64,000 nt of DNA, taken from positions 372,001-436,000 of the forward strand of contig NZ_FNWW01000001.1 of the NCBI RefSeq assembly GCF_900108515.1, in the 5' to 3' direction. The notes under the pieces were generated by a model, which was not told where the DNA came from, ran no database searches, and saw only the letters and a program-made list of their open reading frames with translations. This document shows positions 1-13,295 of the stretch, one piece after another. This DNA comes from Halobacillus karajensis (GTDB taxonomy: Bacteria > Bacillota > Bacilli > Bacillales > Halobacillaceae). A program made the translations under genes and the position numbers. Positions within the stretch are counted from its first letter, which is position 1; the number at the start of each line of letters is the position of its first letter.

Positions 1-555
1 AGCGATTCCCGGCATTATTCCTTTAGGGCCGCCAGAAAAACCAGCGAAAAAGTGAGGCTCGATAAAACCTGTGACAATTCGAAAATCGGATTCCACATAC
101 TCCTTGTTCAGATAAATATCACATCCAAACTTGCTTTTACCAAGATTGACATGTTCATCCTTTTCATGACAATGATTGTTCACAATTCGAATATTATTTA
201 CGACCCACTCGCCTAGCATCTGGATAAATTCTTCCCTCGTTTGATCCCGATGAGTCCCTGTTCCATTAATAATCACAATATTCTCCAGAGGGACGTGGTC
301 CAGCTCTTTAATTAATAATGGAACCAGGATGTGATTGGGGGTGGGGCGGGTAATATCACTAATCACAATAGATACCTTGTCGGTTGAAGAGACCGATTCT
401 TTTAATGGAGCTATTCCAATCGGATCCCTCAGAGCTTTTAATACTGCCTCCTTTTCATCTTCCATTTTAGGTAAATTTTTTGGTTCTATAATAAATGATT
501 CTTCTGGTAAATCAACGGTCAAACCTTTTTTTCCATACAAAATTTCTGTTTCCAT
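1..555 (-). CDS. larA: LarA-family nickel-pincer hydroxyacid racemase/epimerase, N-terminal part (cut by window edge)
   Basis: The first 185 residues of a LarA-family (DUF2088) protein are visible; the full family is about 420 residues, so the C-terminal half lies outside the window. LarA enzymes interconvert alpha-hydroxyacid stereoisomers with a covalently lysine-bound nickel-pincer nucleotide. Seen here are SDITRPTP (66-73), matching the Asp/Arg-containing DHTRP segment, GTGTHR with His102, and PHFFAGFSGGPK with His168 and the pincer-anchoring Lys178. The ATG at 555 has GGAGGGAAG just upstream. It is the third gene after glycerate kinase and a KDG-type permease in one leftward run, while the cofactor genes larB and larC lie 4 kb away. 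Family membership is secure. The substrate is inferred to be glycerate or an aldonate rather than lactate, because no lactate gene is nearby. Confidence 0.87.
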   Translation of the reverse strand, partial: METEILYGKKGLTVDLPEESFIIEPKNLPKMEDEKEAVLKALRDPIGIAPLKESVSSTDKVSIVISDITRPTPNHILVPLLIKELDHVPLENIVIINGTGTHRDQTREEFIQMLGEWVVNNIRIVNNHCHEKDEHVNLGKSKFGCDIYLNKEYVESDFRIVTGFIEPHFFAGFSGGPKGIMPGIA

Positions 556-615
556 GACTTCCCTCCTTGCATTTTATCATAATACATAATAACGTTTACT
601 GAATTTATAAAATAA

Positions 616-1755
616 TCAATTATTTACGACGCTCTTTGTCTCTTCTTTTGTTGTCTCTCTTTTTTCAGAGTGGATTCCGAGATCTTCTCGGTTACCGTAT
701 ATCCCTTTCTGTCTCTGAAGTTTATCTACTAAAATTACTAACACAGGACAGAGTAAAGCAGTCGCAATGGTAGATATAGAGATTTGCGCGGTTGCTATCG
801 GTGCAATATTCTGGATGGCCTCCGCTTCAGCCTGCGTCATGGCACCAGATCCTGCCGCTCCTGCTGCTGCCGCGGCTACTGCTGCTGGAGTAGCAGCTGC
901 GTTTCCGGCCGTAGATGCTTCCGATACAGGAGCAATATAACTCTTTTCTTTAAACAACTTAAATGCAAGAATGCCCATTCCACCTGTAAGAAGTACGGTT
1001 AAGAAAGCGATAGTTAGTCCACCTGTTAACACGCTAGGGTTAAAGAAGTTTGCTAGATTCATTCCGGCTCCCAAGGAGAAGGCAAAGAATGGAATCGTAA
1101 TTGCTTCTCCCGGTCTCAGAAACTCTCTGATTTTTGGATCAAGATTTCCGAGTACCATTCCAATGGTTATCGGAAGAAGTACTGCGATAAATGAAATCAT
1201 AGGAAAAGAAGTTCCGAGGATTCCTAATGATAATAAGGTTAAGAAAGGACCGTCATTAATTGCAAGTATGGATAACCCCCCCACATCCGATCGATTACCA
1301 TATTGACCAGTTAATGCTGCGTACATACCGCTATTACTATTTGTCATTCCAGCAATAATTGCAAGAGTGGAAAGGCCAAATAATCCACTCATCGGATCAA
1401 AGAAATAACCAAAAGCCATTCCCACACCGAGCCCCGTTAAATACTTGGTAACGGTAATCAGTGCACCTTTTTTAATAGCAACCTTTCCTACTTTTAGATT
1501 CATCTGACTTCCTACACAGAAAAGAAATAAGGCAATAAGTACCAGAGCACTGTCTTTAAACAGTTCTTGTGAAAACCCGCCGATTCTCAAAAACTCGTAG
1601 TAACCTTCCTCGGTTTCAGGAGCTCCCAGGGCCTGTAACACATTCATCACCGCCGGAATATGCATCTGATCAATGGTATTCAGCAATGCACCAAGTAAAA
1701 GCGGAACAACCATCAGACCACCAGGTACTTTCTCAATTGTATCTTTAATTCTCAC
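616..1755 (-). CDS. 2-keto-3-deoxygluconate permease-family transporter
   Basis: A polytopic membrane protein of 379 residues with about ten hydrophobic segments, of the KDGT family, which brings 2-keto-3-deoxygluconate and related sugar acids into the cell with protons. The motif EASTAGNAAATPAAVA near residue 280 is the family hallmark. An Ala/Gly-rich stretch follows (AAAAAGAAGSGAMTQAEAEA), which makes the protein longer than the roughly 320-residue KdgT enzymes. The start is GTG at 1755 with AAAGGAGG upstream, overlapping the glycerate kinase stop (TTGTGA), so the two are translationally coupled. The context (glycerate kinase, LarA homologue, CdaR regulator) suggests it imports glycerate or an aldonate. 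The substrate is an inference. Confidence 0.8.
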   Translation of the reverse strand: MRIKDTIEKVPGGLMVVPLLLGALLNTIDQMHIPAVMNVLQALGAPETEEGYYEFLRIGGFSQELFKDSALVLIALFLFCVGSQMNLKVGKVAIKKGALITVTKYLTGLGVGMAFGYFFDPMSGLFGLSTLAIIAGMTNSNSGMYAALTGQYGNRSDVGGLSILAINDGPFLTLLSLGILGTSFPMISFIAVLLPITIGMVLGNLDPKIREFLRPGEAITIPFFAFSLGAGMNLANFFNPSVLTGGLTIAFLTVLLTGGMGILAFKLFKEKSYIAPVSEASTAGNAAATPAAVAAAAAGAAGSGAMTQAEAEAIQNIAPIATAQISISTIATALLCPVLVILVDKLQRQKGIYGNREDLGIHSEKRETTKEETKSVVNN

Positions 1756-2909
1756 AATATCATCCTCCTTTTACTCTCTAGATTTTGATAAAAATAAGCT
1801 CTCACTACTTGCTCTGTGCTGCTTGTTAACAGTTCCTCAGCCTCATCCATAGCTTCTTTAATTGTCATAGGTCTCGTCATCATACTAGTTACACTAACAA
1901 CACCAAAATCATAAAGCGTACCAATCCCTTCTCCTACTGCCCCTCCGATAATAATGGTTGGTACTTCTTTTTGCTTGGCAAACTGTGCTACACCCATCGG
2001 TGTTTTTCCTGAAATGGTCTGGCGGTCAACTCTTCCTTCTCCAGTAATAACCAGATCGGCTCCGTCTAGATGTTTCACGATATTGATGTACTCAAGTACT
2101 ACATCAATTCCGCGATCCATTTTTGATGGAAAAAAAGCTTGAAAGGAACCTCCAATCCCACCAGCTGCCCCGGCACCTGGGCGATCATGCAAACGTACTC
2201 CTGTAACCTGCTCCACTTTATCCGCCCAGTGCGCCATATTACTGTCTAATACTTCTACCTCTTCTTTACCTGCGCCTTTTTGAGGACCGAAAACGTAAGA
2301 GGCTCCATTAATGCCTATAAGTGGATTTTGTACATCGGAAGCAATCAGGAAACTGCATGAGCTGATACGTTTATCAAAATCACTTCTATCAATTTCATAG
2401 ATTTCATCTAGAGCACCGCCACCAAAACGTACTTCTTTTCCCTCACGGTCCAAAAGCTGCATTCCAAGAGCTTGCAGCATGCCGGCTCCCCCATCATTAG
2501 TAGAAGATCCCCCAATAGCCAAAATGAAGTTCGTAAATCCATCATCAAGTGCTTGTTTAATAAGCTGACCTGTTCCGTAAGTAGTTGTATTTAATGGAGA
2601 AGTGCCTTCCGGGACAAGCTTGAGTCCCGAAGCTGTGGCCATTTCAATTACACATGTCTTTCTGTCCCCTAGTATCCCGAAAGTAGCTAAAATATCATTC
2701 CCCAGCGGACCTGTAACCTTTACCTCTCTCTCATGTCCTCCAGTTGCTGCCACTAAAGTTTCCATCGTCCCTTCTCCCCCATCACCTACCGGCAGAAGTA
2801 CTGTTTCCGCATTTGCAAACGCCTTTTTAATACCATTGTGTATTGAGTTTGCCGCCTCAACTGCACTCATACTCCCCTTAAATGAATCAGGTGCTATGAT
2901 GATTTTCAT
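1752..2909 (-). CDS. glxK: Glycerate kinase, GarK/GlxK type
   Basis: A type 1 glycerate kinase of 385 residues, the usual family length (about 380). It phosphorylates D-glycerate with ATP to a phosphoglycerate that enters lower glycolysis. Family motifs are present: PDSFKGSMSA (7-16), GDGGEGT (42-48), GGSSTNDGGAGM (133-144) and TGEGRVDRQT (289-298). It is the first gene of a leftward operon with the KDG-type permease and the LarA homologue, starting 150 bp from the divergent cdaR gene. The last residues (KRRMIL) are encoded by the next gene's ribosome site, and the stop overlaps the next start. Regulation by the divergent CdaR-type activator is likely from position and from known CdaR control of glycerate genes in enterobacteria. 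Confidence 0.9.
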   Translation of the reverse strand: MKIIIAPDSFKGSMSAVEAANSIHNGIKKAFANAETVLLPVGDGGEGTMETLVAATGGHEREVKVTGPLGNDILATFGILGDRKTCVIEMATASGLKLVPEGTSPLNTTTYGTGQLIKQALDDGFTNFILAIGGSSTNDGGAGMLQALGMQLLDREGKEVRFGGGALDEIYEIDRSDFDKRISSCSFLIASDVQNPLIGINGASYVFGPQKGAGKEEVEVLDSNMAHWADKVEQVTGVRLHDRPGAGAAGGIGGSFQAFFPSKMDRGIDVVLEYINIVKHLDGADLVITGEGRVDRQTISGKTPMGVAQFAKQKEVPTIIIGGAVGEGIGTLYDFGVVSVTSMMTRPMTIKEAMDEAEELLTSSTEQVVRAYFYQNLESKRRMIL

Positions 2910-3021
2910 AATAACCCTCCTAAGAAAACGCTTCCAAAGTAACTAGTTAAAATTATACGAATATTGACTAAATTTGTATATAGTCATACCATACATAAAT
3001 AACCACTTATTTTATAATTAA

Positions 3022-3040
3022 TTTGTATTAATTATACAAA
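3022..3040. promoter_or_regulatory. Perfect inverted repeat in the glxK-cdaR divergent promoter
   Basis: TTTGTAT and ATACAAA form a perfect 7-bp inverted repeat around TAATT, 20 bp before the cdaR start and 113 bp before the glxK start. Related half-sites (AATTTGTATA) occur at about 2970-2980. The position between the two divergent units suggests an operator for the CdaR-type regulator; the binding protein is not shown. Confidence 0.45.
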
Positions 3041-3059
3041 AACGAGAAGGGATGATAAT

Positions 3060-4175
3060 TTGAGTGGATTGACAAAAAAAATCGCCGAGGAAATAGTCAA
3101 GGAAACCTCTTTAAGATTGAATCGAAATGTAAATATAATGAATATGGAAGGTATCATAATTGCAGCGCATGACGAAAGGAGGGTTGGATCCATTCATGAA
3201 GGTGCTGTAGAAGTATTGAAGAAAAGAAGCCCTCTTACCATCAATCCAATCGATGAAGAAGTGTGGGTAGGTGCCCAGCCTGGGGTAAATCTCCCGATTG
3301 TTTTTAACAATGAAATTCTTGGAGTCATCGGGATTACGGGCGACCCAGAAGAAATGGGGAATATTGGAGACCTTGTTAAAATGACTACTGAACTCATGAT
3401 TCGTCAGGAATTCCTCGTTTCTCAAATGGAGTGGAAGCAGCGGACGAAGGAAATGATTCTCGAGCAGTTAATCAAGAGTACCCCTTCCCTAGAAGATATT
3501 CATAGAGGATTAAACTTGCTTGACCTACAGCTTCTTCCCCCCTTTACCACAATCGTACTTCAAATTAAAGAACAGCCTATCCTGAATCGGGAACTCATAC
3601 AAAAACTAGAAACCTGTATAGGCAATAACCAAGCTATTGTTGGTTTTATTAACGTAAACCGGGTTTTTATTGCACTTTCAGGACATGAGGAAGAGACAGC
3701 ACTCCATAAAGTGAAATCGATCTATCACCTTATGAAACGATTAAACATTGTCTTTAGAATGTCCTACAGCCTAACTTTCCAAGAACTTGAAAAGTTCAGT
3801 CAATCTTATCTTGACTGTGATATTACATTAAAAATAAGTGATCCAGACAATGACCTTCTATCCTTCGCTCAAATCGAAGTTAAAGCCTTGTTTTACCAGA
3901 TCGATGATGTAATCACAAAAAGATTTTCTCAGCGAGTTTTAAAAAATATCGATCACAACAAAGCTAAAACCTTGAATTCTTTTTTCAAAAACAACTTAAA
4001 CCTGCAACAAACAGCTAATGATTTGTATATTCATCGAAATACTCTTATTTATCGAATGAACAATATTGTAAAAGAGACCGGATATGATCCGAAGAAATTC
4101 GAAGATGCTCTAATTCTTCAAGTGGCCATGTGGATTTACAACCGTCCAACCAAAAGTACTCTAGAAAATAATTAA
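3060..4175 (+). CDS. cdaR: CdaR-type sugar diacid/glycerate-responsive transcriptional regulator
   Basis: A 371-residue regulator with the CdaR layout. The N-terminal putative sugar-diacid recognition domain covers about residues 1-135 and opens with KKIAEEIVKET. A degenerate middle domain covers about 140-290. The C-terminal PucR-type helix-turn-helix covers about 300-360 and includes LQQTANDLYIHRNTLIYRMN. CdaR proteins activate glucarate, galactarate and glycerate genes in response to the acid. The start is TTG at 3060 with AAGGGATG upstream. It is divergent from glxK-permease-larA and precedes larB by 150 bp on the same strand, so it is well placed to control the whole hydroxyacid module. 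The effector is not determined. Confidence 0.85.
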   Translation: MSGLTKKIAEEIVKETSLRLNRNVNIMNMEGIIIAAHDERRVGSIHEGAVEVLKKRSPLTINPIDEEVWVGAQPGVNLPIVFNNEILGVIGITGDPEEMGNIGDLVKMTTELMIRQEFLVSQMEWKQRTKEMILEQLIKSTPSLEDIHRGLNLLDLQLLPPFTTIVLQIKEQPILNRELIQKLETCIGNNQAIVGFINVNRVFIALSGHEEETALHKVKSIYHLMKRLNIVFRMSYSLTFQELEKFSQSYLDCDITLKISDPDNDLLSFAQIEVKALFYQIDDVITKRFSQRVLKNIDHNKAKTLNSFFKNNLNLQQTANDLYIHRNTLIYRMNNIVKETGYDPKKFEDALILQVAMWIYNRPTKSTLENN

Positions 4176-4325
4176 GTCAACTTTGAAAAATTAGAATAAT
4201 TCATATATTATTTACAAGACCATGTACCGACTGGTAAAAATTCTTCGTTTATTACATTGTTTTTCATAAGACTTGTTGGTGTCTTGTAGAAATTATATAT
4301 CTAAATAGAACAGGATGTGATCTAT

Positions 4326-5003
4326 ATGAGTTTTGAAGATTTAGGCTTTTCAAAAGTAGATATTGACCGTGAAAGGCGAACGGGCTATCCAGAAGTCATT
4401 TACGGAGAGGGAAAATCTGTAGAGCAAATTTACCAAATCATGCAATTGTTAATCGATAGACATGAAAAGGTCATGGTGACTCGTCTTTCTGCTGATAAAG
4501 CGGAACAACTTACAGCTCTTTTTCCAGAAGCCGTCTACCACTCTATTCCACAAATCTTACTATACGGTAGACCTCTTCAGCAGTATCAATCGGAGATGGT
4601 TGTTCTTTGTGCTGGAACCTCCGATTTGTTTGTTGCTGAGGAGGCTGCTCTTACCGCTGAATGGATGGGATGTCCTGTTAAGAGGATTTATGATGTAGGA
4701 GTAGCTGGAATCGATCGATTACTCGCTCACCGTGAGGAAATTACGAATGCGAGTGTCTTGATTGTTGTAGCTGGTATGGAAGGCGCATTACCGAGTGTAG
4801 TCGGGGGGATGGTCCGCCGGCCGGTTATTGCAGTACCAACTTCTGTCGGGTATGGGGCGCATATGGAAGGTCTCACACCACTTTTATCTATGCTTACATC
4901 ATGTGCCTCTGGTATGAGCGTAGTCAATATTGATAACGGTTTCGGTGCTGCCTATCAAGCAGCACTAATTTTACAATTAGCCAGCGAGGGGGCACAAAAA
5001 TGA
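4326..5003 (+). CDS. larB: LarB, nicotinic acid adenine dinucleotide carboxylase/hydrolase for nickel-pincer cofactor
   Basis: LarB carboxylates the pyridinium ring of nicotinic acid adenine dinucleotide and releases AMP, the first step in making the nickel-pincer nucleotide used by LarA. The protein has a PurE-like core, visible as VLCAGTSDLFVAEEAA and VAGMEGALPSVVGGMV, which are typical LarB motifs. The ATG at 4326 (225 residues) is preferred because AGGATGTGAT precedes it; a GTG nine bases earlier is too close to that site. The stop overlaps the larC start by 4 bp (ATGA), showing coupling. The sulfur transferase LarE, needed between LarB and LarC, is not in the window. Confidence 0.9.
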   Translation: MSFEDLGFSKVDIDRERRTGYPEVIYGEGKSVEQIYQIMQLLIDRHEKVMVTRLSADKAEQLTALFPEAVYHSIPQILLYGRPLQQYQSEMVVLCAGTSDLFVAEEAALTAEWMGCPVKRIYDVGVAGIDRLLAHREEITNASVLIVVAGMEGALPSVVGGMVRRPVIAVPTSVGYGAHMEGLTPLLSMLTSCASGMSVVNIDNGFGAAYQAALILQLASEGAQK

Positions 5004-6247
5004 ATCACTTATACTTGGATTGTCAGTACGGAATTTCCGGAGATATGACTCTCTCCGCTCTCATAAACTTAGGAGCTGATCTCGACTACGTTAAAGACCA
5101 TCTAAGAGAGCTTCCAATTGATCCTTTTACAATGGAAACAAATCCAGTGAATAAGCACGGTATCCATGCAACAGAGCTCATTCTACAATTTCCTGAAGAA
5201 AAACATCAACACCCTATCCATCCAGATACACATTACCATGACCACTCTCATGAGCACCATGACCACCGGCATGCCTCTTCGATTTTTCGTATGATCGATG
5301 AAAGTATGCTGCCGCAAAGGGTCAAAACGAGAAGTACTAAAATCTTTAAAATAATCGCTGAAGCTGAAGCCAAGATCCACGGAATGAACCCTGAGGATGT
5401 TCATTTTCATGAAGTGGGGGCAATGGATTCAATCGTGGATATTATTGGAGTCTGTCTTGCGCTTGAAAGTTTAGCGATCGAAACTATCAGCGCAGCTCCG
5501 GTCCCTACGGGATATGGTAAAATTCAGATTGCACATGGACTTTACCCAGTACCTGCACCAGCGACAGCGGAAATCCTGGCTGGTATTCCTCTTGCGGATT
5601 TTCAAGCTGAGGGTGAGCTGACCACTCCCACCGGGGCTGCTTTCCTAAAAGCTTTAGTCGATGACTTTGGACACTTGCCTGCATTGCCAATAAAGAAAAT
5701 CAGTTATGGTGCCGGTAAGAAAGATTTCGATCACCCTAATATATTAAGAGCAGTCATTTTTCAAACAAAAGAGGATCTCGATACTACCCGCGAACGTATT
5801 AACGTACTAGAGTGCCAGTTAGATGATATGGAAGGGGAAACACTCGGGTATGTAATGGAAAAAGCATTAGGCATGGGAGCTCTAGACATCTATTACACCC
5901 CGGTAACAATGAAAAAGAGTCGTCCTGGCACATTAATCACTTTACTTGTAAAACCGGAACATTCGTTAATGTTCGAAGATCTCCTCTTAAGGGAAACAAG
6001 TACATTTGGTGTGCGGAGAGTGGAATGCGAGCGATCTATCCTTTCCAGACGAATGGATCAGGTAGAAACTGTTTATGGATTGGTCAAAGTTAAAATAGGG
6101 TTTAAGGGCAAACACGTTTACAAAGTCACCCCCGAATTTGAAGATGCAAAAGAAATGGCGCTAAAGAATAACATTCCACTGAGGAAGGTTTATTCAGAAG
6201 TAAACCTTAGTGCAATGCAATTAATAAAAGAAGAGTCTCTACTATAA
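5000..6247 (+). CDS. larC: LarC, nickel insertion (cyclometallase) for nickel-pincer cofactor
   Basis: LarC inserts nickel into the dithio-pyridinium precursor, a CTP-dependent cyclometallation that completes the LarA cofactor. The protein is 415 residues and uninterrupted, whereas Lactobacillus plantarum makes LarC by a programmed frameshift between larC1 and larC2. The N-terminal segment LYLDCQYGISGDMTLSAL and the central PVPAPATAEIL are family motifs. A histidine-rich loop at about residues 72-91 contains HYHDHSHEHHDHRH and is a likely nickel-binding store. It overlaps larB by 4 bp. A strong terminator follows about 140 bp downstream. Confidence 0.92.
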   Translation: MNHLYLDCQYGISGDMTLSALINLGADLDYVKDHLRELPIDPFTMETNPVNKHGIHATELILQFPEEKHQHPIHPDTHYHDHSHEHHDHRHASSIFRMIDESMLPQRVKTRSTKIFKIIAEAEAKIHGMNPEDVHFHEVGAMDSIVDIIGVCLALESLAIETISAAPVPTGYGKIQIAHGLYPVPAPATAEILAGIPLADFQAEGELTTPTGAAFLKALVDDFGHLPALPIKKISYGAGKKDFDHPNILRAVIFQTKEDLDTTRERINVLECQLDDMEGETLGYVMEKALGMGALDIYYTPVTMKKSRPGTLITLLVKPEHSLMFEDLLLRETSTFGVRRVECERSILSRRMDQVETVYGLVKVKIGFKGKHVYKVTPEFEDAKEMALKNNIPLRKVYSEVNLSAMQLIKEESLL

Positions 6248-6482: not shown

Positions 6483-7295
6483 TCAATATTTCCTCCAGGA
6501 AATCTCCCCTTTACCTAATAATTCTTTTCTTGCAAAGGTGTGGATATGCGAGATAATCCTCTCCATTGTCTGTGTACGATTATCTAAAATCCTCACTACA
6601 ACCCCATTATCTTCCATGTTAGAAATTCCGATACGGACATGAGGGTGAGCCCCGATAACACTTTCATATAACCATTCACCAAATTCACGAGAAGCTTTCG
6701 GATGAAAAATAATGAAAGAGCCTACATGTGTGTGCCCCTCTAACTGTAACACCCCTTCCAGTTCATCATCCGGTTCTAGTAAAAGGTGATCAAACAAAAC
6801 GAGCTTTCCATTTTGGTAGACTTTCAATTTGTTCCTCATCCAGTCGTATTGGAAGTTCGATCCATCTTCAGACCAGCCCGGAGTAATGATATCGCTGTAA
6901 AAGAAAGAGGAGTTATGTTCCATCTCAACCATCGTCTCTTGGATAAACTTGGCTCCCTTATACAAAATCAATGGATCTAAATAATACTCAAGGACACTCT
7001 CCGCGCCTAACTGTATCGTCGTACGCTGTTCCACTGGCTTCGAAGGTGATTTATAAACCTTTGTGGAGGCTTGACTTGTGACCGCCAGTTCCGCTCCTTC
7101 TTCCAATTTAATTGTAGATCCGTATGTATCCCCGTCGACATACCCACCACCTACATGAATAAGGTAGACTGACAAGGAATCATCATCGAGGCGAACAGGG
7201 CGCGTATATTTAAACGCTCCTTCATAATATCCATGAATCATGGTCCTCGAATTGCGGTTCTTCACCTCAAGGTTAAGAAGACCCGTTTCACTCAT
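6483..7295 (-). CDS. ureD: Urease accessory protein UreD (UreH)
   Basis: A 270-residue UreD protein, the scaffold that binds apo-urease and recruits UreF and UreG so that nickel passes into the active site. It shows the family segments [11 protein letters not shown] near residue 23, [11 protein letters not shown] (50-60) and [12 protein letters not shown] (about 75-86). It is the last gene of the leftward urease operon and overlaps ureG by 4 bp. Placing ureD after ureG matches the Bacillus/Staphylococcus urease gene order ABCEFGD. The family assignment is clear from both motifs and position. Confidence 0.92.
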
Positions 7296-7906
7296 GCTTT
7301 CAATCCTTTAAGAAAGGCGTTAGATTTTATCCAATCGATCACTTCATCCAAACCATCTTGTGTCTTTAAGTTTGTGAAAACAAAAGGCTTTTCTCCTCTC
7401 GCTTTGATTGTATCTTGTCTCATAATATCCAGGTTTGCCCCTACATAGGGAGCAAGGTCTGTTTTATTTACAACAAATAAATCCGATTTGATCATGCCCT
7501 GGCCATTCTTCCTCGGAATTTTTTCTCCTTGAGCTACGTCGATAATATAAATCGAGAAGTCCACCAGTTCAGGACTGAAGGTTGCTGCTAAGTTATCACC
7601 GCCACTTTCAACAAAAATTAAATCGAGATCACTGTGGCGCTCCTTCAATTCATCAATGGCTGAAAAATTCATGGAAGCATCTTCTCGTATCGCCGTATGA
7701 GGGCATCCGCCCGTTTCGACTCCAATGACTCGATCATCTTCCAATACCCCATTTTTCAAAAGAAACAAAGCATCCTCTTTTGTATAGATATCATTCGTGA
7801 TGACAGCCATACTCAATTCATCCTTAAGGTCCCGTGTTATTCTCTCTACAAGCATCGTTTTTCCTGCACCGACAGGACCTCCAACTCCAATACAAATCGG
7901 TTCCAT
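7292..7906 (-). CDS. ureG: Urease accessory GTPase UreG
   Basis: UreG is the SIMIBI-class GTPase that carries nickel and drives urease maturation by GTP hydrolysis. The 204-residue protein, of normal length, has a P-loop at 9-17 (GGPVGAGKT), the metal-binding Cys-Pro-His motif at 68-70 within [19 protein letters not shown], and the base-recognition motif NKTDLA near residue 147. It lies between ureF, 36 bp upstream, and ureD, which it overlaps by 4 bp. All catalytic and nickel-site residues are intact, so the maturation system looks functional. Confidence 0.96.
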
Positions 7907-7942
7907 AATACCCCACTCCTTTTATATTTATTTAGATGTCAT

Positions 7943-8641
7943 TTAAGACATGAACAGCCGCACATTCAAACGTTCATGATGCATTTGAGCAATTTCAAGC
8001 CCAGGACTCCCCGCCCCTAAATCTTCTGATGATAGATTCATAATTATTTGGACCGCTTCTTCCACGATAGGCTGCAGGTCTACTAAAACCCTTTGCCCGT
8101 CGGTCTGCCCGATCGGTATCCCCCTGACCGCATTTTGCACAAGAGAAGACAAGTTTGTGAACAAGAATGTCTCCACTGCCACTTTTTTAGAAATGTCCAG
8201 TGAATGATAAACGGCTGCTAGAACTACCGAAGGATGGCCATAAGCTTTCTTTTCCTTGATCCAAGACAAGTATTCGCTCAAATTAGTCGAAGGATATAAT
8301 TCCATGAACAGCTTGGCCATACGTTCTCCCATCTTCCGGTTTCCTTCTCTTGTCTCTCGCGCTACGCAAGTAGCGAACAAAACATGATCGATTTCTAAAA
8401 GGTCCTCAGCGCTGCCATTTTCTATACTTTCATAAGCTAGACGGCAAGCGAGTCCATCATTGTAGATCAACTGCTTCTTTAAAAAGACCATCAGTGCTTG
8501 CTTAAAGCTCTCCGTTCCCGTCACTACATCCTCTTGAATATACGTTTCAAATCCGAAAGAATGAGAAAAGGCTCCCGAGGGAAATTGAGAGTCACTCAGC
8601 TGCAAAAGCGGCATCAGTCCGTTAGTCATGGTGATGTCCAA
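7943..8641 (-). CDS. ureF: Urease accessory protein UreF
   Basis: UreF is an all-helical protein that joins UreD and UreG on apo-urease and gates GTP hydrolysis by UreG. The 232-residue sequence begins with LLQLSDSQFPSGAFSHSFG, the diagnostic UreF opening, and ends with MHHERLNVRLFMS, also typical. The start at 8641 lies inside the 3' end of ureE (20-bp overlap); a second ATG at 8629 is possible. It belongs to the ureABCEFGD operon. Confidence 0.93.
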   Translation of the reverse strand: MDITMTNGLMPLLQLSDSQFPSGAFSHSFGFETYIQEDVVTGTESFKQALMVFLKKQLIYNDGLACRLAYESIENGSAEDLLEIDHVLFATCVARETREGNRKMGERMAKLFMELYPSTNLSEYLSWIKEKKAYGHPSVVLAAVYHSLDISKKVAVETFLFTNLSSLVQNAVRGIPIGQTDGQRVLVDLQPIVEEAVQIIMNLSSEDLGAGSPGLEIAQMHHERLNVRLFMS

Positions 8642-9068
8642 TATAGCGGAAAGGCTCAGGCACCTTTCTCTTTTCTCGTTTATGCGGAATACCTAACTCT
8701 TGCAGTAATTCCTCGATCAAGTAATCGTACTGGACGATCATTTCTTCCCCTTCAAACTGGGCGGGCAAATGACGATTCCCCAGCTGGTGAGCGATATCCC
8801 CCATTTGCTGCATACTTGTTGGGCTGATGACTAAGACATCATCCTTTTTCACAGAAATGACGACCATATTTTTTTCATCCATATACAATACATCTCCGTC
8901 CGAAAGCTCTTCATTTTTAGATAATCTCATTCCAATCTCATTGCCATGATCCGTTGTCATGCGCTGTATTCTTTTGACTAACTGATCGCTTTCCAAGAAT
9001 ACGTATTCTATATGAGGAGCTCGTTTCTCTAAAGTAGCTACGTTCCCAACAATGTTTTCAATAATCAT
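8622..9068 (-). CDS. ureE: Urease nickel metallochaperone UreE
   Basis: UreE binds nickel and hands it to UreG during urease activation. The protein is 148 residues when started at the ATG at 9068, which has GAGGTGAAGG directly upstream and lies 10 bp after the ureC stop. A longer reading from 9146 would run into ureC and is rejected. The N-terminal domain starts MIIENIVGNV and the C-terminal peptide-binding domain includes IAHQLGNRHLPAQF, containing the conserved nickel-site histidine. The tail ends GHHHD, a short histidine-rich metal-binding end. Confidence 0.93.
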   Translation of the reverse strand: MIIENIVGNVATLEKRAPHIEYVFLESDQLVKRIQRMTTDHGNEIGMRLSKNEELSDGDVLYMDEKNMVVISVKKDDVLVISPTSMQQMGDIAHQLGNRHLPAQFEGEEMIVQYDYLIEELLQELGIPHKREKRKVPEPFRYIGHHHD

Positions 9069-9078
9069 TTCCTTCACC

Positions 9079-10788
9079 TCAAAATAAGAAATATCGTTGT
9101 GCCAATGGAACCGTTTCCGCAGGTTCACAATCAATGACCTGTCCATCTACTTTTACCACATAGGTTTGTGGGTCAACTTCGATTTTTGGTGTTTCTCCAT
9201 TATGAATCATCGATCGTTTCGTTAAATTTCGCACACCGGAAATCGGGCGTACCCGCTTCTTCAACCCCAGTTCTTCATGCAAGCTGCTCTCATAAGCCTT
9301 TGTTGATACGAACGTCAACGATGTTTTGTTTTTCGCTTGGCCGTGAGAACCGAACATTTCTCTATAAAATACAGGTTGGGGAGTAGGAATGCTTGCGTTT
9401 GGATCTCCCATCAGGCTATGAGCAATCATCCCCCCTTTAATAATCAGTTCTGGCTTCACACCAAAAAACTTTGGATCCCACAGCACTAAATCAGCCAACT
9501 TTCCACTTTCCACTGATCCGACATATTCAGAAATCCCATGTGTGATGGCCGGATTGATCGTATATTTAGCAATGTATCTTTTGGCTCGAAAGTTGTCTTT
9601 CTTGTCGTGGTCCCCTTCTAAAAATCCGCGCTGCTTTTTCATTTTATCCGCTGTTTGCCACGTACGGATAATAACTTCTCCTACACGTCCCATGGCCTGA
9701 GAATCGGATGAAATCATGCTGAATACCCCGAGGTCATGAAGGATATCTTCAGCAGCGATCGTCTCTTTTCGAATACGGGAATCCGCAAAAGCGATATCCT
9801 CCGGTACACTTGGATCCAAGTGGTGACAAACCATCAACATGTCCAAATGTTCTTCAAGTGTGTTAACCGTATAAGGCCTGGTTGGATTCGTAGAGGAAGG
9901 GAGTATATTCGGATAACTGGCCGCTTCAATAATATCGGGGGCGTGTCCTCCTCCTGCTCCTTCGGTATGATAGGTATGGATGACTCGATCATCGATCGCT
10001 TGAAGCGTATGTTCAACAAAACCTCCTTCATTCAATGTATCGGTATGTATAGCAACCTGAACATCATTTCGATCAGCAACACGTAAACACGTATCAATAG
10101 ATGAAGCTGTCGTCCCCCAATCTTCATGAAGCTTTAACCCTACAGCTCCCGCTTCCACTTGCTCTTGAATGGCCTCTTCACTAGAAGAATTCCCTTTTCC
10201 TAAAAATCCTAGATTCATCGGATATTCATCCGCTGCTTCAAGCATCCGATGGATATTCCATGGACCTGGCGTACAAGTAGTTGCTTTCGTTCCAGTAGCA
10301 GGGCCTGTGCCTCCTCCGATCATGGTAGTGATCCCTGAGGAAAGAGCTGTTTCAATTTGCTGCGGAGCGACAAAGTGAATATGCGCATCAATCCCGCCTG
10401 CAGTCACAATCATTCCTTCCGCTGCTACGACTTCCGTTGAAGCCCCAATCACAAAATCTATATCGTCCATCAGCAAAGGATTTCCTGCTTTCCCAATAGC
10501 TGAGATCCAGCCTTCCTTTACACCGATATCCGCTTTAAAAATGCCTGAATGATCCAGGATAACGGCATTGGTAATGACAAGATCCACAGCCTCTTCGCTT
10601 GTAGCTAACGGATGCTGTCCCATACCATCCCTGATCACTTTACCACCGCCGAACTTCACTTCATCTCCGTATGTCGTATAATCCTTTTCCACTTCAATGA
10701 ATAATTCCGTATCCGCCAAGCGAATGGCATCCCCCGTAGTAGGACCGAACATCTCCGCATACTGTTTTCGCGACATTTCAAAACTCAT
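9079..10788 (-). CDS. ureC: Urease subunit alpha
   Basis: This is the catalytic subunit of urease, which hydrolyses urea to ammonia and carbamate at a dinickel site in the cytoplasm. The length of 569 residues is standard. Nickel ligands are visible: His136 and His138 (AHIHF), the carbamylated bridging Lys219 (GLKLHEDWG), His248, His274 and Asp362. The flap histidine is His322 within MVCHHLD. Numbering is offset by two from the Klebsiella enzyme and no key residue is missing. The start overlaps ureB by 4 bp. The complete ligand set and accessory genes indicate an active enzyme. Confidence 0.97.
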
Positions 10789-11096
10789 AGATCAGCCCTC
10801 CCATTGAACTGATTACTCAAACCGTAAATCTCCCTTTCACCGGAAAACGCAACCAGATCTACTTCTTTTTCATCGCCTGGTTCAAAACGAACAGCCGTGC
10901 CTGCCGGAATATTTAAATGCCTTCCTTTCGCTTGCTCCCGGTTGAATTGCAAGTAGGGATTCACTTCATAAAAATGAAAGTGGGAACCGGTTTGGACGGG
11001 GCGGTCTCCTCGATTCAATACATTGACTTTGACGACTTCTTTTCCTTCATTACAAACAATCGGCTCTTTTCGTAATAAAAACTCTCCTGGTATCAT
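10785..11096 (-). CDS. ureB: Urease subunit beta
   Basis: The 103-residue beta subunit packs against UreC in the (ABC)3 urease core and has no catalytic residues. It begins [13 protein letters not shown] and contains the family segments [15 protein letters not shown] (32-46) and [14 protein letters not shown] (68-81). It follows ureA by 15 bp and overlaps the ureC start by 4 bp. The length is normal for separate-subunit bacterial ureases, unlike the fused AB subunit of Helicobacter. Confidence 0.96.
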
Positions 11097-11111
11097 CGTT
11101 CAACCTCCTTC

Positions 11112-11414
11112 TCAGCGAATCGGATCATGTATAGTCACAAGTTTTACCCCATCCGGAAACGTCGCTTCCACTTGAATATCGGGAATCATCTCCGGAATAC
11201 CTTCCAAGACATCTTCTCTCTCCAGAATCGTGGCGCCATATTGCATCAACTCGGCTACTGATTTGCCGTCACGCGCTCCTTCGACCACTTCATATGTAAT
11301 AATAGCGACCGCTTCCGGATAATTGAGCTTCAATCCTCTCCCCTGGCGCCTCCGGGCAAGGTCAGCCGCCGTCACCACCATGAGCTTTTCCATCTCTCTA
11401 GACGTTAGCTTCAC
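11112..11414 (-). CDS. ureA: Urease subunit gamma
   Basis: The 100-residue gamma subunit of urease, with the family sequence [13 protein letters not shown] at the start, [18 protein letters not shown] (20-37) and the C-terminal [11 protein letters not shown]. It heads the structural genes and is preceded by AGGAGGTG. Only 32 bp separate it from the small membrane protein upstream, so urease is probably transcribed from the transporter promoter near 13.25 kb, giving one operon of urea uptake plus hydrolysis. Confidence 0.96.
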
Positions 11415-11446: not shown

Positions 11447-11689
11447 TTACGGCTGTCCATCCTTTCCTTGCATATATTCAACGACAGGACGAAACGCAAT
11501 ATATAGCCCCGCAATAATCAGCCAGCTAAACGATAGATAGGTCCACCCTTTGAAAAACTCGAGGCTATAGGAGTAACCTGTGAGGAACATAACCCCAGGG
11601 AAACCAATAATCAGTAATGCCGTCAACCCGAAGGCCCATCTTTTACATAGTTTCGCGTCTTCACTTAGCTGATGCTTGTTTCCCTTCAT
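11447..11689 (-). CDS. Small two-TM membrane protein, putative partner of the urea symporter
   Basis: An 80-residue protein with two hydrophobic segments (about 20-38 and 49-67) and charged ends. It starts at 11689 inside the 3' end of the symporter gene (29-bp overlap) and precedes ureA by 32 bp. The pairing of a sodium:solute symporter with a tiny 2-TM protein recurs elsewhere in the window, at 34765-35022. I do not recognise a named family with certainty. A role as a small symporter subunit or stabiliser is inferred from context only. Confidence 0.6.
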
Positions 11690-13230
11690 ACATTATTTCC
11701 TCCTCTATGATTTCGTCATCATTCTCCTCATCATCAAAGCTACGGAACTTACCTTTTAGCGATTCAAAATCAAACTCTTGATTCGACATCAACGCATGGC
11801 CAATGGAAATCGTTCCACTTACAAGAAAAACGGTAATATTACCAAAAAACATCGATTGAAGTTCTCCTAACGAACGGATACTAATCTCTCCGAAGAGAAG
11901 GTAAGCAGAAGTAAACCATGCGGTTACCCCAAGAACCAGTCCCGCGGAAGCACCATAGAAGGTCCCTTCATTTGTTGCCTTTTTCCAAAGCAGTCCCAAA
12001 GTTACTGGAATGACCGCTCCACTTACAAAAATCCCCATAGCCATATAAACCCATCCTAAACCGATACCTACTTTAAACAACAGAATTGAAAGGACACCCA
12101 TCATCAAACCAAACCCTAACGTAACTTTTCGGGAGACATTCAATAGCCTGTCACTGCTCGCTTTAGGGTTTATCGATTTCCGGTAAATATCTGTAACAAT
12201 AATATTTGTAATCGCTGTTAGTTCAGCAGCTCCTGTAGACATAACCGCCATGAACAACATGGCCAGAAACAAGATCGATCCTACACCGCCAAGCAGGTGG
12301 GCAGCCATTTCCGGAGCGACAGAATCAGGGGTTCCAACCGTAATACCAAGACCTGCAGCACTTACTCCAAGAAACGTGGCAATCGCAAACGGAATGGAAA
12401 ACCACGAAATTCCACCGTATATGTATGCTCTGGATGCTGCACTATCTTTACTTGCAATGGCCCTCTGCCAATACGCCTGATCAACGAAAACCGCACCAAA
12501 GTTTCCTATGATATTAATCATTCCGAAAAACAGACCAGATACAGAAGCCATGGTAAGCATGGAATCAGAAGACGGCATGCTGCTTAAACCTTCATATATA
12601 GGGTCAATTCCAAATTTGACATAAACAACGGTAGCGAAAATAGCAAGGATGGTAAAAATCATGACCGTATTAAAGTAGTCAGCAATAAAAGAGGCTTTTT
12701 AGTCCACCGATCATGGTGTAAATCGTGAAGGTGAGAGGAATCAGAAAGGCAGCTACATAAATGTTCATCCCCGTGAGAGAGTTTAAAGCAATCGCTCCAC
12801 CAAGAACGACCATGGACGTCACGAGAATATTGGTCATTAAAGCAAACCCCATAATTAAGCGGTGGTTTTTCTTATCGAATCGCTGGCCAATGAACTCTAA
12901 AAACGTGTGGGCATTAGGGGCTCGCTTTTTCAAGTTGATCGCAACAATCGCAAATAATAACACTTGAATACAAGCACCTGCGGCATACCAATAGGGACCG
13001 CTAATCCCATATTGATACCCTGTGGAAGAAGACATCATCAAGGTTGCTGCCCACGTCCAAGCAGCAATAATAGAAGCACTCGCTAATCCAACCCCAACAC
13101 TTCTACCTGCCGTACTGAATTGCTCAGCAGTCATGGCCTGTTTCTTTCTTCGCTGCATGACAAAAGTGATGAGAGTAAAGAACAATCCAAAAACCAATAA
13201 CAGCCCATAACCAACATAAGATGGTAACAT
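11661..13230 (-). pseudogene. DUR3-like urea:sodium/proton symporter, single-base frameshift
   Basis: Two reading frames together make one complete SSS-family symporter of about 520 residues. The N-terminal part (13230 to about 12700) contains FSTAGRSVGVGLASASII, AAWTWAATLMMSSS and YGISGPYWYAAGA, which closely resemble fungal and plant DUR3 urea transporters. Reading stops after GGLKSLFYC. Removing one A from the A5 run (12696-12700) restores GGLKASFIADYFNTVMIF and joins the second frame. The ATG at 13230 follows GGAGGG and is preferred to 13275. It directly precedes the urease operon, so urea uptake is the obvious role. The shift may be a real mutation, slippage-correctable, or a homopolymer sequencing error. 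Confidence 0.8.
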
Positions 13231-13295
13231 AAACACCCTCCAAATATTTTCAATATACTGAATAATGTAACACACTATGTAAGATAGTCAACATA

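Follow-up and report, generated by a model that had tools for sequence, protein, structure and literature searches.

Racemisation of glycerate in vitro by homologues of the nickel-dependent lactate racemase LarA was published in 2024, and the authors left its physiological significance to be determined (PMC11770544). In that report, LarAH43 from Enterocloster asparagiformis preferred glycerate, with a kcat/KM of 1.14e5 vs 8.3e4 for lactate, whereas LarA1 of Lactiplantibacillus plantarum and LarAH51 were about 17-fold and 10-fold better on lactate than on glycerate. These enzymes carry Gln, Thr and Glu, respectively, at the position of LarA1 Thr359, and the Gln was put forward by the authors, as a proposal and not as a proven cause, to explain the glycerate preference of LarAH43 (PMC11770544). 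Here we analysed a 64,000-nucleotide stretch of the Halobacillus karajensis genome (GCF_900108515.1, contig NZ_FNWW01000001.1, positions 372,001 to 436,000; hereafter the window), at whose left edge a larA gene is joined to genes for a class I glycerate kinase (glxK) and a KdgT-family permease and faces a cdaR-type regulator gene followed by larB and larC. This locus is probably an operon under CdaR control and catabolite repression that allows growth on either glycerate enantiomer by means of LarA and GlxK. The window cuts larA at its left edge, and the complete gene was read from a region of the same genome (L002; genome G000, contig C13).

The gene context was compared in three samples, namely 80 related loci, an evenly drawn sample of Bacilli, and 80 regions from a phylum-wide search with the Pfam profile Lar_N. 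In the even sample larA was patchy, with a match in 46 of 398 genomes; 40 of the 50 listed places were examined, and 33 of these were close to the window LarA (at least 64% identity). Among the 80 relatives, glxK lay on the larA strand in 65 (within 1.6 kb in 62), a KdgT-type permease gene lay within 1.6 kb in 62, and cdaR was on the opposite strand in 64. The corresponding counts for the 33 close Bacilli rows were 23 (all within 1.6 kb), 16, and 18. None of the 80 phylum-wide regions carried glxK in a search that used the window GlxK as query, did not seek other glycerate kinase classes, and included some regions ending at contig ends. Since glxK accompanies larA in 65/80 and 23/33 loci against 0/80, the arrangement is far above chance. 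On the first of the two trees described below, the presence of glxK switches at least 17 times among 80 labelled rows, and the linkage has therefore been gained or lost repeatedly rather than inherited as one frozen block.

Lar_N had a single match genome-wide, the window larA. The protein aligned with LarA1 (5HUQ) with a score of 258 bits, covering residues 5-411 of the query, and the equivalents of the catalytic histidines (H102 and H168; LarA1 H108 and H174) were invariant in 81/81 aligned rows, as were those of the residues that bind the nickel-pincer nucleotide (NPN) cofactor (R70, K178 and H194; LarA1 R75, K184 and H200). With the cofactor genes larB, larC and larE all present, each above its curated cut-off, these features identify the protein by sequence as a member of the LarA superfamily. 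At the four specificity positions (LarA1 F175, F176, W358 and T359) the window LarA has F, F, W and Q, the last of these being Gln353, and this FFWQ signature was found in 81/81 aligned rows. The uniform Q is partly a matter of selection, as the relatives' loci were the best 80 out of 176 and the W-Q site is spanned by one of the six search patterns; W-Q was nevertheless present in 33/33 close rows of the even Bacilli sample, which were found by whole-protein search. One row of that sample (L229) is partial, and its two Phe positions are unreadable.

Two trees separated the window LarA from LarA1. In the first, built from 93 rows of LAR type plus 5 others, FFWT rows, which have Thr at the last position, stood in for LarA1; the window LarA fell on a branch of 67 rows with a support of 96, or 100 including L228, and a separate clade of 25 held most of the FFWE rows along with the FFWT rows. 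The second tree, a slower one, contained 70 rows with LarA1 added, and its bootstrap was not fully settled. Here LarA1 joined the FFWT rows (best identity 82%; support 100/98 to 100/100), while the window clade had a support of 100/98 for 38 rows and of 100/99 for 39 rows. The approximately unbiased test was weak, as it moved only L002 alone to the LarA1 rows, torn from its near kin, and the argument rests on the support values. The placement of the window LarA outside the clade of LarA1, the lactate racemase proper, is thus well supported on sequence grounds, and tight clustering with proven lactate racemases, looked for with LarA1, was not seen.

In the phylum-wide regions, genes for a lactate permease or a GlcD-type oxidase were frequent neighbours of larA. 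The neighbourhoods of larA also differed by signature. Within seven genes of larA, a gene of the Lactate_perm cluster occurred in 7/15 FFWE vs 1/84 FFWQ neighbourhoods, and one of the GlcD cluster in 9/15 vs 3/84. No glxK was found at three FFWT larA loci (L230-L232). Three FFWE rows (L120, L135 and L137; 64-69% identical) are nested in the window's wider clade, and no glxK was found at them, the contigs of L120 and L137 ending within about 2 kb upstream of larA. The next row outside, L228 (48% identical, FFWE), has GlcD-like, GlcF-like and weakly LldP-like neighbours. As a separate observation, the gene that immediately precedes larA in L120 (8690-9577) and L137 (679-1554) joins a Diacid_rec sensor to a chemotaxis signalling domain, as scanned in the L120 copy, hinting at taxis to the same acid.

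Regulation was examined in 62 cdaR-glxK gaps, one from the window and 61 from relatives, which were scanned for TGNAANCGNWNNC, a pattern that we take to be the consensus of the catabolite-responsive element (cre), and compared with 100 rounds of first-order shuffles. The pattern occurred in 53/62 gaps, against a mean of 0.37 and at most 3 after shuffling, and in almost all cases it was no more than about 40 bases from the start of glxK; a stricter 15-base form occurred in 36/62 gaps vs 0.14 in shuffles; the other nine of the 62 gaps had no TGNAANCGNWNNC match. In the window the cre-like box is positioned between the leftward promoter and glxK. This conserved pattern likely marks the operon as a repressible carbon-use operon. 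Over the pattern scan in its entirety, neither promoter-like sites (32 vs 31.4 in shuffles) nor terminator-like sites (8 vs 11.1) were enriched, and we therefore put weight on conservation. We considered and rejected a CdaR operator shared by all relatives, the palindrome near the -35 element being clear in close relatives only.

Elsewhere in the same genome, the one lactate permease gene belongs to an lldP-lutABC set (L237), at a distance of about 580 kb from larA. The initial annotation had stated that no lactate gene is present, which is true of the genes named at the larA locus, where no lactate permease or dehydrogenase gene was found, but not of the genome as a whole. A second set, cdaR-glxK-gntP (L236), encodes a glycerate kinase 40% identical to that of the larA operon. 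Like the larA operon it combines a CdaR-type regulator, a glycerate kinase and a permease, but it lacks larA and its permease is of the GntP type rather than of the KdgT family; we regard it as probably a plain D-glycerate route. Lactate use and, probably, plain glycerate use thus have loci of their own in this genome, and the larA operon resembles a glycerate operon to which a racemase has been added.

In the pathway that we propose, the KdgT-family permease would import glycerate, and LarB, LarE and LarC would make the NPN that loads LarA. LarA would shift the C2 hydride of L-glycerate, its presumed substrate and the poorly used enantiomer, to the cofactor and return it on the other face to yield D-glycerate, using the two-histidine mechanism of LarA1. 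GlxK would then phosphorylate D-glycerate and pull the equilibrium towards glycolysis, and CdaR would act as the sensor of a presumed effector. This sequence of import, racemisation and trapping had been put forward in the initial annotation, and its glycerate half draws support from the conserved context, the Gln at the T359 position, the trees and the separate lactate genes.

The features of the locus are listed in Table 1. All six genes named in the initial annotation were recovered at their positions and in their families, by coordinates and profile scores, and the leftward glxK-permease-larA block facing cdaR-larB-larC was confirmed and extended by larE beyond the window edge. The larE gene lies 33 bp downstream of larA and is followed on its 3' side by a 13-pair hairpin and a T run (L002:14398-14370), while glxK and the permease gene overlap by 4 bases, as do larB and larC. 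The most likely order of the unit is promoter, cre, glxK, permease, larA, larE and hairpin, with cdaR-larB-larC divergent. The LarE protein has only one cysteine. The permease scored below the equivalog model TIGR00793 for 2-keto-3-deoxygluconate (KDG) transporters (156.7 vs a cut-off of 453.8 bits); it is by sequence a KdgT family member, a family that does not in itself prove KDG transport. The regulator was likewise below the NCBIfam CdaR equivalog NF008550 (158.6 vs 612 bits).

Table 1. Features of the larA locus (window positions unless preceded by L002; RBS, ribosome-binding site)
Feature	Position	Strand	Evidence
larA, 5' part (first 185 of 420 codons), predicted NPN-dependent 2-hydroxyacid racemase	1..555	-	Lar_N 217 bits
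larA, full (420 aa)	L002:15294-16556	-	NCBIfam NF033504 (Ni_dep_LarA) 538.9 bits, cut-off 460
larE, outside the window	L002:14424-15260	-	NCBIfam LarE 351 bits, cut-off 150
KdgT-family permease gene, predicted glycerate importer	616..1755	-	PF03812 283 bits
glxK, class I glycerate kinase (GlxK/GarK)	1752..2909	-	PF02595 470 bits; TIGR00045 465 bits, cut-off 168
RBS-like AGGAGGG of glxK	2915..2921	-	sequence
cre-like box TGGAAGCGTTTTC, predicted CcpA catabolite-repression site	2924..2936	-	pattern kept in cdaR-glxK gaps
glxK operon promoter, TATACA-17 bases-TATAAT	2952..2980	-	TATAAT conserved in alignment of 53 gaps
Weak candidate operator TATGGTATGACTATA, guessed CdaR site just upstream of -35	2979..2993	.	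by eye
cdaR-type regulator gene, divergent	3060..4175	+	Diacid_rec 156 bits; HTH_30 (PucR-type helix-turn-helix) 62 bits
larB, NPN cofactor biosynthesis	4317..5003	+	NF033503 293 bits, cut-off 175
larC, LarC1 and LarC2 parts in one frame	5000..6247	+	TIGR00299 222 bits and NF052512 143 bits, both above cut-off

Beyond larC, a urease operon (window 6483-11414, frames named by eye) runs convergent to larB-larC, so that two nickel enzymes are adjacent. A urease gene was close to the operon in only 1/80 relatives (L034), and the pairing is therefore probably due to chance. An Rfam match to 5_ureB_sRNA (80.5 bits, window 10347-10633) lies on the strand opposite the large urease frame at 9079-10788; conservation of the urease coding sequence likely accounts for it, a small RNA being unproven there. 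Further on, at window 11661-13275, two adjacent leftward frames resemble, by eye, two parts of a single transporter of the sodium:solute symporter type that may be interrupted. Across the relatives, a membrane protein of the NicO/DsbD_2 type recurs near lar genes in 17/99 neighbourhoods (L013:14326-15003; one member scanned) and is perhaps a nickel permease.

Several points weigh against glycerate as the substrate. To our knowledge, no enzyme of the clade of the window LarA has been assayed, and the link between Gln and glycerate is based on one enzyme, LarAH43. The protein is named lactate racemase by NCBIfam Ni_dep_LarA. The tested enzyme nearest the window clade in the tree is the broad-spectrum LarAIp (support 98/85), a placement that is unsure given its branch of 3.99 changes per column. 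In the alignment LarAIp (9EID) has W-Q as well and different residues at both Phe positions, and it is reported to act best on L-lactate and 2-hydroxybutyrate and then on L-glycerate (PMC11851776). The linkage itself has exceptions: glxK is not on the larA strand in 15/80 and 10/33 loci, larA-E-B-C occurs without glxK in four genomes that the tree places close to Staphylococcus, and FFWQ occurs in distant larA genes that lack glxK (L128, L163, L166, L167, L169 and L191), that of L128 adjoining a GlcD-type gene. In L051 a lactate permease gene stands beside an FFWQ larA. Authors writing in 2020 cautioned that activity is not always readable from genomic context. A racemase is perhaps not strictly needed either, because glycerate kinases may take L-glycerate weakly; that of T. 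tenax, apparently of another kinase class, acted on D- vs L-glycerate at 100 vs 30%, a preference for D that it shares with the others named there (PMC2063504).

Some of these points favour an alternative in which LarA racemises lactate, or short-chain 2-hydroxyacids broadly, and stands in a glycerate operon by chance, the lactate being oxidised by enzymes encoded elsewhere. Besides the score above the NCBI lactate-racemase equivalog cut-off and the lactate activity of LarAIp despite its W-Q, it is reported that F, F, W and E/Q form the usual lactate-racemase signature and that all four tested enzymes of this signature group act on lactate (PMC11770544). However, the glxK linkage spans many genera, the lactate permease gene of the genome is far from larA, and the window LarA does not group with LarA1, and we consider this explanation unlikely.

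A second alternative is that LarA is a C2-epimerase of four-carbon (C4) acids, converting D-erythronate to D-threonate for a kinase and dehydrogenase of the DtnK/PdxA type, with glycerate as a secondary or side substrate. In 9/80 relatives the larA strand carries a dtnK-like gene less than 3 kb from larA, and dtnK-pdxA directly follow larA in seven (L016, L031, L036, L043, L066, L045 and L067), preceding larE in the first five of these. The window genome itself has a set of KdgT-like permease, DtnK-like and PdxA-like genes about 5 to 8 kb beyond larA (L002:7138-10508), and two distant larA genes of the phylum-wide sample have dtnK within 3 kb (L163 and L189). LarAH43 also acts as an epimerase on 4-deoxy-threonate/erythronate, with an efficiency about 0.1% of that on glycerate by the published values (PMC11770544). 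Against this, glxK is the more constant partner (65 vs 9 of the 80 relatives, and 23 vs 0 of the 33 close Bacilli rows for dtnK within 3 kb). In addition, the C4 set of the window genome is convergent, stands beside a PrpR-type regulator gene and has another gene between it and larE, and its DtnK-like protein is below the equivalog cut-off (341 vs 450 bits). As the main role of LarA, C4-acid epimerisation therefore seems improbable.

D-erythronate and D-threonate are C2 epimers, so that one LarA could serve both. One nickel enzyme might accordingly provide a shared C2-inversion step, for glycerate ahead of GlxK and for D-erythronate/D-threonate ahead of the DtnK/PdxA branch, an idea that we hold only tentatively and regard as doubtful. 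If it is true, a scattered catabolite-repressed pathway of Bacilli uses both C2 hands of three- and four-carbon acids. A regulon shared with the DtnK/PdxA set was unsupported, as the cre pattern in L002 occurs only at glxK and once within the glxK frame, and the PrpR-type regulator gene adjoining that set weighs it down further. Two observations on C4-type genes stand apart. In L163 (4988-8747), from another class, a distant FFWQ larA is found in the order larA-KdgT permease-dtnK, without glxK. A second, distant LarA-like protein is encoded at L021:4354-5610, with members of the same cluster in L024, L025, L040, L041, L050 and L077; the L021 copy matches the NCBIfam family 'nickel pincer cofactor-dependent isomerase, group 22' (550 bits, cut-off 400). 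Its genes lie near genes of tripartite ATP-independent periplasmic (TRAP) transporters, directly after a PdxA-like gene in L021, L024, L025 and L050, and the protein may be a C4-acid epimerase.

The Pfam KdgT family of the permease, the CdaR family of the regulator and a galactarate-dehydratase-like pair after larA in a few relatives (L059, L062, L063 and L064) might suggest that the operon serves a larger aldonate or an acid related to KDG. This is very unlikely, as the operon combines genes for a glycerate kinase and a permease with larA and larE and includes neither a hexonate dehydratase nor a KDG enzyme, the signature is FFWQ and not the E, V, A, H reported for gluconate epimerases (PMC11770544), and the permease is far below the KDG equivalog cut-off. 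The substrate had been given in the initial annotation as glycerate or an aldonate; the glxK-centred operon favours the former, while the latter is narrowed to a possible C4 role, with dtnK/pdxA in some relatives. The dehydratase-like pair (galactarate/altronate type; L059:11315-12776, its cluster also in L062, L063, L064, L066 and L074) follows or flanks the glxK-larA operon, its L059 copy is below the galactarate equivalog cut-off, and its substrate may be a clue to the acids handled.

Taken with the described enzymes, the operon with glycerate as its substrate would join a known reaction to a pathway that looks new. Glycerate racemisation is known in vitro; a full-text search, supplements excluded, returned no paper pairing 'glycerate kinase' with 'lactate racemase', and the passages available from four LarA papers, again without supplements, mention no larA-glycerate kinase operon. 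The conserved operon names a likely role for glycerate racemisation and offers hosts in which it can be tested. If this role is true, growth on L-glycerate is nickel-dependent, and proteins of Bacilli named lactate racemase by the NCBI model may be misnamed. LarA1 belongs to the same family as the window LarA and shares its catalytic and NPN residues, but has Thr359 where the window LarA has Gln. LarAIp (9EID/9EIA; 247 bits) has W-Q in common with it and differs at both Phe positions. LarAH43, a member of the same superfamily, has Q at the T359 position, as the window LarA does, and glycerate was its best substrate in vitro (PMC11770544).

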